A stretch of DNA of 64,000 nt from Streptomyces sp. NBC_01498 (lineage in GTDB: Bacteria; Actinomycetota; Actinomycetes; Streptomycetales; Streptomycetaceae). The position numbers and the translations under genes were made by a program. Position 1 is the first letter of the stretch, and the number at the start of each line of letters is the position of its first letter. The stretch lies in NCBI RefSeq assembly GCF_036327775.1, contig NZ_CP109598.1:3162001-3226000 (forward strand), read 5' to 3'. Positions 58,646 through 61,549 of the stretch are shown here, one piece after another. The notes below the pieces were generated by a model. The model had not been told where the DNA came from. It did not search any database and worked only from the letters and a program-made list of their open reading frames with translations.

Positions 58646-61549
58646 TCAGGGCACCTGCTTCACCTGGATGACCTTGTACTCCTTGCCGTCGATGATCTTC
58701 GTCGTCTCGCCCGTCTTCACGAACTTGCCACCGCGCGGGATGAGGACCTCGGACTCCTTGCCCCGGTAGCGGGACAGCGGGTCGATGTTGCGGCCGTCGT
58801 CCGTGGTGATCTCCATGACGACGTTCTCGCCCTTACGGCCGTTGCTCTTCGCGTTCTTGGCGGCGCGGTCGGCCTTCGCCGGATCGCTGGACGTGCTCAG
58901 GTACTCGGGCAACTCGACCTCGTCGCCGTTGGCGAACCTCTCCAGCAGGTCCTCCGGCATGAAGGTGCCGCGGTGGAACGTGCCCTGGACCGGCGGGAGA
59001 TGCTCCAGCGCCTGGTCCATACGCTCGATGAACTCCGGGACCCTTTCCCCACGGCGACCGGGAATCGGGTCGCCGCGCAGGTACTTGTTGGCGTCCAGCG
59101 CCCAGGAACCGGTGTAGTCGGCGACGATCAGCGCGTCCTCCGCCGTGAAGTCCTTGGTCAGCGGGTTCTGCCGGGCGATGTCCTCGACTTCCTGCGCCCA
59201 CTGCTTCTTGTCGGCGGGGCGGAAGTCCGGGATGCCGTCCAGCACGGTCATCGGGTCGGTGGGCGTCGAGCAACTGCCCCCCGGCTCACCGTTGCCGTCG
59301 TCCTCCTCGGGCCCGGTCTCCGGCGCCGGATCCGGCGGGTTGTCGGGCTCGTCGGTGAGACCGAGAGCGTTGGAGATCTGGTTCTCGATGTCCTGGTAGG
59401 TGTCGACACCCGGGAGGGAGACTCCGGCCGTCGTGAGCATCAGATCCGCCGGGGACATGGGGACGGGGGCCGCGAGCGCGACACCGCCGGCGTAGAGGCT
59501 TCCGGGGCCGCCCGTACGAACACCGGCCGAGGCGAGCGTGTAACGGCCGGAACCGGAGACGCCCGTGGTCAGAGGGCCGTAGTACGAGGCGTTGGTGGCG
59601 TCGGGGCAGTCGTCCTTGTCGTCCTCGTCGTCCTTGTCCTCGTCGTTCTCCTCGTCGTCCTTCTCGTCCTTGTCCTTCTCGTCCTTGTCCTTCTCCTTGT
59701 CCTTGTCGTCCTTACCGCCGTCGCTCCCGCCGGTCTTGCAGCCGGTCAGGCCCCACTGCGACCCCGCGCCGGTGGGGTTGCACTGGATCTTGTCGTCGTC
59801 CTTGTCGTCTTCTTTGTCCTTGTCCTTGTCCTTGTCGTCGTCGTCCCTCTTGTCGTCGTCCTCGTCCTTGTTGTCCTTGCCACCGCTTGAGCTACCTCCG
59901 CCGTTGGAGCCGCTCCCGCCCGAGGTGGTGCAGTGCTGCGTGATGCCCCAAGGGGCCATGACCGGATTGCAGTCGTAGCCGCCGCTGGAGCCACCGCCGT
60001 CGGATCCACCACTGCTGGAGCCACCGCCGTTCGAACCTCCGCCGCTGGAGCCACCGCCGGAGTTGCCGCCGCCGTTCGAACCACCGCCGCTGGAGCCACC
60101 ACCGTTCGACCCGCCACCGTTGGACCCTCCGCCGGAGTTGCCACCGCCGTTCGAACCACCACCGTTGGAGCCACCACCGTTCGACCCTCCGCCGGAGTTG
60201 CCACCGCCGTTCGAACCACCACCGTTGGAGCCACCACCGTTGGACCCTCCGCCGGAGTTGCCACCGCCGTTCGAACCACCATCGCTGGAGCCACCACCGT
60301 TCGAACCACCGCCGCTGGAGCCACCACCGTTCGACCCGCCACCGCTGGACCCTCCGCCGTTGCTTCCGCCGCCAGAGTTGCCACCGCCGTTGGACCCGCC
60401 ACCGCTGGATCCGCCGCCGTTGTTCCCGCCGCCGTTGTCGCCACCGCCGTCATTCCCGCCGCCGTTGTCACCACCGCCGCTGTTCCCACCGCCGGAGTCG
60501 TTCCCACCATCGGAACCACCGCCGTTGTCACCGCCACCGTTGCTCCCACCACCGGAGTCGTTCCCACCATCGGAACCACCACCGTTGTCACCGCCACCGT
60601 TGCTCCCACCGCCGTCATTCCCGCCACCGTTGTCACCACCGCCGTTGTCACCACCGCCGTCATTCCCGCCACCGTTGTCACCACCGCCGTTGCTCCCACC
60701 ACCGGAGTCGTTCCCACCATCGGAACCACCGCCGTTGTCACCGCCACCGTTGCTCCCACCACCGTTGTTCCCGCCACCGTTGTTCCCGCCACCGTTGTCA
60801 CCGCCCCCGTTGTTCCCCCCACCGGAGTCGTTCCCGCCCGCGTCACCACCGCCCGTCTCGCCGCCGCCCCCCGCGAGCGTGTCGCTGGGGCAGGAGTCGC
60901 CGCCGAGGATCTTGCAGACCTCGTTCTGGAGGCCGGTTGCGACCTGGGTTCCGACGCCGCTGAAGAGAAGCGTGCCGATGATCAGGGAGACCAGACCGAT
61001 CATGCCGACGTACTCGACCGTCGACTGACCACGGTTCCGGCGCCACTTGATCATGTGCTGGAGGGACGGGACCGCCTCCCGCCGGAGCCGTTCCCGCGTC
61101 ATACGCGGCCTCAAGGCCCGCCGGTCCGAGGGCAGTTCGAACCACGCCCGGCTCGCACCCGCGCCGATCAGCGCCAACAGGATCAGCGGCAGCAGCAGTT
61201 GGCTGAGCCCGCGCTCCGAACCCGCGTACAGGTTGACGACGCTGCCGACCACCAGCCATACCTGGAGACCGATCAGCCCGAACCAGACGAGCTTCCCGCC
61301 GGTCCACAGCCGCCGCGCCAGAATCACCGCCGCGATGCCCGGCGTCACCGCGTACACCGCCAGCAGGCTGAGCGTCGGCGTGATGTGGCGGCCCAGGTCG
61401 AGCAGCGAGTCCACCACGCCGACGCCGCCCAGCAGCGTGAGGGCGAACATCAGATACAGCAGAACGCGGGTCACCGCCAGCGATCGTGGCAGCTCCCGGC
61501 GTTGGGCGGGTACGCCGACCTGGAAAGCCAGGGCCTGTGTGTTCGACAA
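58646..61549 (-). CDS. Pilin-like membrane protein with C-terminal ADP-ribosyltransferase
   Basis: A 967-residue protein if started at TTG 61549, which has GGAGGA 5-8 bases upstream; an ATG at 61615 lacks one. Order: four membrane helices (about residues 27-130); a basic stretch then RNRGQSTVEYVG (about 171-182) and a fifth hydrophobic helix, as in TadE/Flp-type pilins; from about 226 a long Gly/Asn/Ser/Asp spacer (GGGSNGGG units); two cysteine motifs of the form CNP-x(4-6)-WG-[IL]-T-x-x-C; two Asp/Lys/Glu tracts; and from about 773 an ADP-ribosyltransferase domain with R860 (FHRG), S885-T-S887 and E932-S-E934. The ExE pattern is that of arginine-specific transferases. Probably a surface-displayed or exported toxin; no immunity gene is recognised next to it. 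Confidence 0.82.
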   Translation of the reverse strand: MSNTQALAFQVGVPAQRRELPRSLAVTRVLLYLMFALTLLGGVGVVDSLLDLGRHITPTLSLLAVYAVTPGIAAVILARRLWTGGKLVWFGLIGLQVWLVVGSVVNLYAGSERGLSQLLLPLILLALIGAGASRAWFELPSDRRALRPRMTRERLRREAVPSLQHMIKWRRNRGQSTVEYVGMIGLVSLIIGTLLFSGVGTQVATGLQNEVCKILGGDSCPSDTLAGGGGETGGGDAGGNDSGGGNNGGGDNGGGNNGGGNNGGGSNGGGDNGGGSDGGNDSGGGSNGGGDNGGGNDGGGDNGGGDNGGGNDGGGSNGGGDNGGGSDGGNDSGGGSNGGGDNGGGSDGGNDSGGGNSGGGDNGGGNDGGGDNGGGNNGGGSSGGGSNGGGNSGGGSNGGGSSGGGSNGGGSSGGGSNGGGSSDGGSNGGGNSGGGSNGGGSNGGGSNGGGNSGGGSNGGGSNGGGSNGGGNSGGGSNGGGSNGGGSSGGGSNGGGNSGGGSSGGGSNGGGSSSGGSDGGGSSGGYDCNPVMAPWGITQHCTTSGGSGSNGGGSSSGGKDNKDEDDDKRDDDDKDKDKDKEDDKDDDKIQCNPTGAGSQWGLTGCKTGGSDGGKDDKDKEKDKDEKDKDEKDDEENDEDKDDEDDKDDCPDATNASYYGPLTTGVSGSGRYTLASAGVRTGGPGSLYAGGVALAAPVPMSPADLMLTTAGVSLPGVDTYQDIENQISNALGLTDEPDNPPDPAPETGPEEDDGNGEPGGSCSTPTDPMTVLDGIPDFRPADKKQWAQEVEDIARQNPLTKDFTAEDALIVADYTGSWALDANKYLRGDPIPGRRGERVPEFIERMDQALEHLPPVQGTFHRGTFMPEDLLERFANGDEVELPEYLSTSSDPAKADRAAKNAKSNGRKGENVVMEITTDDGRNIDPLSRYRGKESEVLIPRGGKFVKTGETTKIIDGKEYKVIQVKQVP
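60040..60840. repeat. Large coding minisatellite (Gly/Asn/Ser)
   Basis: About 800 bases of 12- to 33-bp units around CCACCGCCGTTNGA, in two zones: GGGSNGGGSSGGG type (60040-60400) and GGGDNGGGNDGG type (60400-60840). Encodes the spacer of the ADP-ribosyltransferase protein; several higher-order units repeat exactly. Confidence 0.92.

Follow-up and report, generated by a model that had tools for sequence, protein, structure and literature searches.

Related systems

As set out in passages of Zhang et al. (2012, PMC3482391), polymorphic toxin systems have a constant N-terminal trafficking part to which interchangeable toxins are joined. A gene family alike in both respects, and with PT-HINT domains in its kin, is represented in a stretch of 64,000 nucleotides (nt) from Streptomyces sp. 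NBC_01498 (NZ_CP109598.1, positions 3,162,001 to 3,226,000; hereafter the window, to which all unprefixed coordinates refer). The source chromosome is a single 7.27-Mb contig. The window gene encodes a 967-residue protein ending in an ADP-ribosyltransferase (ART), and its family differs from the systems of Zhang et al. in having a four-helix domain and a Flp-like pilin as its trafficking part; the first 300,000 characters of PMC3482391 contain no mention of 'pilin', 'prepilin', 'TadE' or 'Flp'. The best explanation, to which we give a probability of about 0.6 from sequence comparison, is that these proteins are toxin-carrying pilins displayed or delivered by a Tad pilus.

Other described systems come close in single features. 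Passages on ARC-domain polymorphic toxins (PMC12605009, 2025) list Flp pilins with the N-terminal elements that are joined to a toxin domain, but do not mention a four-helix part, placement in tad loci, prepilin cleavage or split genes. The Kil Tad pilus of Myxococcus, according to passages of PMC12075869 and PMC8460266, has interchangeable large minor pilins for contact killing and needs prepilin peptidase for some of its tips; these tips, however, are domains of unknown function with no toxin enzyme named, and the host is a diderm. PilB of Streptococcus sanguinis (PMC8179133) likewise has a functional module grafted on a pilin for display, but in the passages concerned it is an adhesin with a seven-residue leader, the modular-pilin survey used the IPR012902 signature, and 'adp-ribos' does not occur. 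Streptomyces umbrella toxins (PMC11062931) are polymorphic toxins of the same genus on an extended stalk; they are particles whose parts have Sec or Tat signals, and the passages contain none of 'pilin', 'pili' and 'Tad'. The available passages of open-licence PMC literature gave no account of the four-helix module, of tad-linked toxins and their immunity pairs, or of the split gene form.

Organization of the gene

58646..61549, minus strand: whole gene, 967 residues; TTG start at 61549, stop at 58646-58648
61559..61563, minus strand: Shine-Dalgarno sequence GGAGG, 9 nt ahead of the TTG (by sequence reading)
61136..61486, minus strand: four-helix membrane domain, residues 22-138 (hydropathy, model); a separate neighboring gene in distant relatives
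61028..61066, minus strand: basic, putatively cytoplasmic segment and prepilin motif ending at G174, with predicted cut G174/Q175 (conservation in 64 open reading frames)
60893..61027, minus strand: mature Flp-pilin-like module, residues 175-219 (alignment to the chromosome's Flp pilin)
59972..60883, minus strand: Gly/Asn/Ser/Asp stalk, residues 223-526 (composition; low-complexity run 232-524)
59930..59971, minus strand: cysteine module 1, residues 527-540, CNPVMAPWGITQHC (sequence)
59585..59881, minus strand: Asp/Lys-rich tracts, residues 557-655, interrupted by cysteine module 2 (composition)
59738..59782, minus strand: cysteine module 2, residues 590-604 (sequence)
58649..59272, minus strand: ADP-ribosyltransferase domain, residues 760-967, with R860, S885-T886-S887, E932 and E934 (Pfam, alignment, model)

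The initial annotation read this as one fused protein with a TTG start, and both points are borne out. There is no internal stop in the 967-residue frame; its GC content by codon position (0.65, 0.55, 0.84) is highest at the third, which is weak evidence since shadow open reading frames (ORFs) behave likewise. A protein search with residues 1-222, in which scoring covered the 7997 candidates sharing most words, gave 11 matches: the window protein and 10 Streptomyces proteins. These homologs are single long proteins of 859-960 residues, 70-78% identical in the N-terminal region, and four of the 10 start at the position equivalent to the TTG, which has GGAGG before it. The same chromosome also encodes a 1036-residue paralog of identical layout (P0002). 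A chance fusion is therefore excluded, and the stop-free frame and single-protein homologs rule out a two-gene or frameshift artefact at the window locus.

A family with interchangeable tips

A genus search with a three-row N-terminal alignment matched 65 of 295 genomes at E <= 1e-10 (E-values per genome), some by the pilin part only. Sixty-five ORFs from 60 fetched regions and the chromosome's own copies scored above 80 bits; one partial ORF (L075:3056-3901) was dropped, leaving a set of 64, and 16 near-full-length matches lie outside it. All counts include related strains and so are not independent. The 64 ORFs were clustered at the C-terminus by BLAST and representatives were scanned by Pfam. 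The largest cluster is Tox-REase-5 (39 ORFs; all three scanned match, and L106 also has PT-HINT), followed by a possible PD-(D/E)XK cluster, possibly a nuclease (10 ORFs; three scanned, one with a weak Hjc match below cut-off), and Abhydrolase_8 (5 ORFs, one scanned). Two ORFs, both on our chromosome and both scanned, end in an ART and one, also scanned, in a Scabin-like domain. Two pairs have C-termini of unknown type (three of these four were scanned, without a Pfam match). The remaining three ORFs are truncated or out of frame. The tails of L082 and L089 cluster with no toxin and appear out of frame. At L129 the N-terminal and ART parts are in two overlapping frames.

The tips are exchanged on closely similar N-termini. 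That of the Scabin-like protein P0011 is identical at 182 of 205 positions to that of P0012, and at 167 of 205 to that of P0005, both of which carry ADPrib_exo_Tox. On the chromosome of the window gene, P0003 joins a 41% identical N-terminus to Tox-REase-5 (2.9e-19). Sequence thus gives strong support to a polymorphic-toxin family built on a Flp-type N-terminus. The fusion recurs in homologs and is no one-off, as this N-terminus carries several toxin types. Database labels are divided: 'Flp family type IVb pilin' for some members, 'Tox-REase-5 domain-containing protein' for the rest of those labelled. The same chromosome has a second toxin type, Tox-REase-5, on the family N-terminus at L010:8893-11963; an overlapping gene that follows it matches an Imm52-like model (see below) and no Pfam family. 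Four large Flp-helix proteins of another family are also encoded there (L011:8241-10502, L011:10988-12616, L013:8583-10232 and L015:9740-11578); by eye they have no four-helix part, and the two in L011 have no Pfam match.

The pilin segment and the four-helix domain

The helix after the membrane part had been called TadE/Flp-like. We compared this segment with five pilin-like proteins encoded in the chromosome's tad locus, with 200 shuffles each. Residues 167-217 align without gaps to Flp1 at 27 of 51 identities (score 123, shuffle maximum 43); the other scores were 108 for Flp2 (shuffle maximum 36), 57 for TadF (44), 35 for TadE (37) and 31 for the TadG-like protein (42). The segment is called Flp-like because the Flp scores lie far above the shuffles and the TadE score does not. 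TadE membership is rejected, the score falling below the shuffle maximum and no TadE Pfam match being present, so that only the Flp half of the earlier label stands.

G174, Q175, E179, G182, V187, C212 and C220 are invariant in all 64 ORFs, and Y180 is found in 63. Included here are the Gly(-1) and Glu(+5) of a prepilin motif before the hydrophobic helix 177-204. On these alignments the segment is an entire mature Flp-like pilin whose prepilin-peptidase motif is intact, which makes it probable that the protein is processed and treated like a pilus subunit and does not serve only as an anchor. The pilin-type anchor of the initial annotation keeps its pilin segment but is probably more than an anchor. 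Cutting by prepilin peptidase is, from the motif, likely.

Hydropathy gives hydrophobic segments at 22-52, 58-79, 86-110 and 113-137, plus the fifth at 177-204. An AlphaFold model (predicted local distance difference test score, pLDDT, 76.5; predicted template modelling score, pTM, 0.58) agrees, with helices that include 22-51, 58-79, 86-108, 113-129, 177-196 and 199-215; the four membrane helices first noted are thus confirmed. A fold search of this domain against the PDB found none of its 194 matches at E <= 10 to reach E <= 0.001 (best 0.19), so a known fold was rejected, and an NCBIfam search of the N-terminus returned nothing informative. PrsW peptidases mostly have eight helices and four motifs (passages of PMC3482391); PrsW-type trafficking was ruled out, as the window protein has four helices and no PrsW profile match in Pfam. 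The loop 130-176 contains 13 Lys/Arg against 4 Asp/Glu. This positive-inside pattern would make residues 130-176 cytoplasmic and place the stalk and enzyme outside, in support of the surface exposure first proposed.

Split genes in distant relatives

A class-level search with a 12-row alignment matched 22 of 394 genomes in 10 of 137 genera, and seven regions of another actinobacterial family were examined. Six four-helix ORFs (118-279 residues) are each followed, within ~150 nt, by a gene for a pilin-HINT-toxin protein that opens with an 11-residue leader ending in Gly (e.g., MLRRIHDPDRG/ASFVEY). Three other genes in these regions are of the fused form. Cleaved at G174/Q175, the fused Streptomyces protein would, by sequence, yield the two products that are encoded apart in the split genomes, and the coincidence of the gene split with the predicted cleavage site supports a joint function of the four-helix part and the pilin. 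Two separate genes in homologs, which the initial annotation would have taken as refuting it, do occur in distant relatives, but the division lies between the four-helix part and the pilin.

PT-HINT, absent from the window protein in a Pfam scan, was found in seven of nine proteins scanned, namely all six split toxin genes and the fused gene of L166; of the two without it, one is a four-helix protein standing alone. Three split toxin genes also carry Ntox24, RNase A or Colicin D, and the fused gene L163:10497-12593 has PT-HINT plus a deaminase. The same regions contain a Flp-like helix joined to an NlpC/P60 peptidoglycan hydrolase (L163:14481-15143, minus strand; PF00877, 3.6e-27) and a pilin-like helix (weak profile match) with an ART and no Gly stalk (L164:1172-3055, minus strand; PF03496, 1e-15).

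Linkage to tad clusters and to immunity-type genes

Tad linkage was scored as an OmpA-like gene or a prepilin peptidase of tad type in the flank, with the genome's own tad proteins as queries. In a first pass, mostly with 5-kb flanks, 26 of the 64 genes were linked, all on the toxin's strand: 15 Tox-REase-5, six of cluster 1, two each of clusters 4 and 5, and one out-of-frame ORF. The OmpA-like gene was upstream of 23 and the peptidase downstream of nine, six having both. Wider flanks for the 20 one-sided genes revealed the missing side for eight: in five cases the peptidase, at 6.5-15.6 kb downstream, and in three a full tad cluster on the upstream side. This brings to 14 the number bracketed by both. 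Wider flanks for 20 of the other 38 genes added four more, all Tox-REase-5 and downstream of tad genes, one of them bracketed. In total 30 of the 64 are tad-linked, each on the toxin's strand. The earlier statement that no Tad or immunity gene is adjacent therefore holds for the window copy but not for many family members.

The chromosome itself has one Peptidase_A24 (prepilin peptidase) match, beside a tad locus (L012), and four T2SSF and three TadE matches in two tad loci. Stand-alone Flp pilin genes occur at L014:9386-9625 (plus strand) and L012 ~8991-9260 (minus strand); the extra Flp gene in L012 has the OmpA-like gene on one side and the prepilin-peptidase gene on the other, the position of the toxins in some relatives.

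Are the toxins accompanied by immunity genes? Hidden Markov models (HMMs) seeded from one downstream gene per cluster were run on same-strand ORFs beginning <=700 nt past the toxin end. An Imm52-like gene follows 38 of the 39 Tox-REase-5 ORFs (the exception is at L077), and four other C-terminal clusters have their matched downstream gene in 10/10, 5/5, 2/2 and 2/2 cases. Exclusivity is imperfect: one out-of-frame ORF (cluster 7) is also followed by a match to the Tox-REase-5 model, and three genes of clusters 1 and 4 by a match to the cluster-5 model. By Pfam, one of eight genes tested, a Tox-REase-5 partner, is Imm52 (2.4e-6, 27.7 bits against a cut-off of 25); the remaining seven, among them the own-genome partner, had no match. 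In polymorphic toxin systems Imm52 is paired with Tox-REase-5 (passages of PMC3482391). Where such a matched gene follows, the toxin is probably directed against bacteria.

The ADP-ribosyltransferase tip

The initial annotation placed an ART with R860, S885-T886-S887, E932 and E934 at the C-terminus, and profile, alignment and model all agree with it down to the residues. The window protein matches PF03496 (E 1.5e-8, 34.6 bits against a cut-off of 23.4), and a sequence search finds Vis (3.3e-11) and Tre1 (5.1e-4). The named residues are invariant in 11 of 11 aligned rows and align with those of Vis. The predicted domain (pLDDT 91.6, pTM 0.85) has Vis as its best Foldseek match (5.3e-13, TM-score 0.69), followed by Certhrax, Plx2a and Tre1 (2.7e-10). 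Taken together, profile, motifs and predicted fold identify an R-S-E ADP-ribosyltransferase. The Scabin-like profile PF22596 does not match the window protein, and the Scabin/pierisin class was rejected for its tip. An E-x-E motif and resemblance to Vis and Tre1 point to arginine as target, and ADP-ribosylation by this domain would probably be on arginine. The Vis toxin (PDB 4xzj) and Tre1, a type VI secretion system ART (PDB 6dre), share the R-S-E fold, the STS and the E-x-E; their carriers differ from the four-helix/pilin carrier described here, and Tre1 has a solved toxin/immunity pair whereas none was recognized for the window gene.

ART tips are sparse in the genus: the ART alignment matched four of 392 genomes, our own included, at E <= 1e-15, and named Streptomyces carry it too; a first contig scan with this alignment found no relative. 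A search with the ART region gave 11 proteins including the window's, and nine of the 10 others carry the family N-terminus, the tenth being annotated as partial. Scabin-like and ART genes can stand in tandem (Scabin-like, Scabin-like, ART in L120; Scabin-like, ART in L131). The Scabin-like label in these arrays is by sequence resemblance; where Pfam was run, in P0011 and L088, PF22596 matched.

Stalk and neighboring genes

A long flexible stalk, paired cysteine motifs and Asp/Lys tracts had all been noted and were found again as listed above. Of 311 stalk residues, 174 are Gly, 50 each are Asn and Ser, and 24 are Asp; the Asp/Lys part has 36 Asp and 20 Lys in 99 residues. The length first given, roughly 350 residues, needs correction: the Gly run is ~293 residues, or ~424 with the cysteine and Asp/Lys part. 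Two or three cysteine modules occur in 11 of the 12 ART/Scabin proteins examined, and none in the paralog P0002.

Neighboring genes had been offered as immunity candidates, a suggestion that we find unconvincing. Convergent with the toxin gene is one for an RCC1-repeat protein (57340-58533, plus strand; PF00415, 2.4e-76), with a signal-peptide-like start by eye; it recurs in L120, L123, L131 and L132. Another neighbor is a helix-turn-helix (HTH)/DUF5753 gene; an HTH/DUF5753 relative lies near eight of 14 ART/Scabin loci, on differing sides, and a same-strand upstream ORF with no Pfam match recurs in five of 14, all of which also share neighboring genes. All three were rejected as immunity genes. 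The downstream-gene HMMs found no match at 15 ART/Scabin loci including the window's (one with 579 nt downstream). Same-strand matches downstream of these loci either link syntenic or near-identical loci only or have little length: the 'coding-like' downstream ORFs of the window and four syntenic loci are antisense to RCC1, a 275-residue ORF is shared by L128 and L133 only, which are near-identical, and others (such as L121 with L129) are short.

Proposed mechanism and rival explanations

In the proposed mechanism the chain would insert with the pilin helix N-in/C-out, and prepilin peptidase would cut at G174/Q175, freeing pilin, stalk and toxin from the four-helix part. The Tad ATPase and platform would extract the mature subunit, which would be placed on or at the tip of a Flp pilus or short pseudopilus. 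The flexible stalk would take the enzyme across the thick cell wall, and on contact the ART domain would enter, or be released to, the target and ADP-ribosylate it.

Several observations weigh against delivery by a Tad pilus. The invariant Gly and Glu are no proof of cleavage. No Pfam pilin model exceeds threshold for the window protein, and P0003 has only a sub-threshold DUF4244 match (E 0.07). The would-be leader, 174 residues with four membrane helices, is unlike known prepilin leaders, and with 793 residues left after the predicted cut the product would make a very large pilus subunit; because of this long, helix-bearing leader and large subunit we do not class the protein as an ordinary Flp pilin. 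L164 has two stand-alone four-helix ORFs with no separate pilin-toxin gene behind them. As to linkage, 12 of the 26 first-pass genes have no prepilin peptidase within ~15 kb downstream, the nearest tad gene is 13 nt to several kb away (~12 kb for the second toxin of L067), and 34 of the 64 genes were not seen near tad genes, of which 16 were rechecked with ~8-10 kb flanks (one near a contig end) and 18 had the first pass only. The window gene and P0002 lie outside the chromosome's two tad loci, none of the 30 linked genes has an ART or Scabin-like tip, and no recurrent companion gene was found for the ART/Scabin branch.

That the window copy and those 34 ORFs were not seen beside tad genes would also fit a membrane-tethered toxin, an explanation we consider unlikely, in which the Flp-like segment, cut or uncut, is only an anchor or export signal, the Tad machine is unused and the toxin stands on its stalk at the surface. 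The long stalk alone could span a Gram-positive wall and the four-helix domain might by itself keep the protein in the membrane, but the conservation of Q175, E179, G182, V187 and Y180 and the similarity over a whole Flp exceed what an anchor needs, and the position of the gene split speaks against it as well, as does the repeated location of family genes within or next to tad clusters on the same strand. Less probable again is Tad-assisted secretion, with a transient pseudopilin shed in a type II-like manner to give a soluble exotoxin, its ART and Scabin-like tips possibly acting on fungi, insects, plants or protozoa. Vis, which the ART domain resembles best in fold, is a secreted toxin, and the tandem occurrence of Scabin-like and ART tips and the missing companion gene agree with such a role; the long stalk and cysteine modules suggest tethering instead, and the family's other toxin types have classic bacterial-toxin domains or immunity-type genes. 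A non-weapon role, as an internal or developmental ADP-ribosyltransferase on hyphae (self-signalling or programmed death), would suit the lack of an immunity gene in the ART branch and the two ART copies on one chromosome. It is very improbable given the patchy distribution of the ART noted above, its exchange for other domains on the same N-terminus, and kin with HINT and classic toxin domains. Toxin-carrying pilins on a Tad pilus remain our preferred reading.

Implications

The ART branch was found neither beside tad genes nor with a recurrent immunity gene, and its target may therefore differ; the ART/Scabin branch may be aimed at targets from which the producer itself has nothing to shield, such as eukaryotes. 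The wider proposal, which we hold tentatively and at slightly less than even odds, is that an armed Tad/Flp pilus is a distinct toxin route of Actinobacteria, with subunits freed from a four-helix partner, and that the ART/Scabin branch is a version, maybe aimed at eukaryotes, with a Gly stalk replacing the usual central region and no recognizable immunity gene.

Polymorphic toxins are sorted by their mode of travel, and a pilin-borne class, if real, would add a trafficking route. It would parallel the Kil pilus of Myxococcus, for which the 2021 passages left toxin secretion open, and would carry the notion of modular pilins beyond adhesion, to enzymes that harm neighbors. From the split and fused gene forms the processing site can be predicted with unusual directness. 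If the reading is correct, Streptomyces Tad pili would have a concrete job, and their role would be testable through the toxin-immunity pairs.

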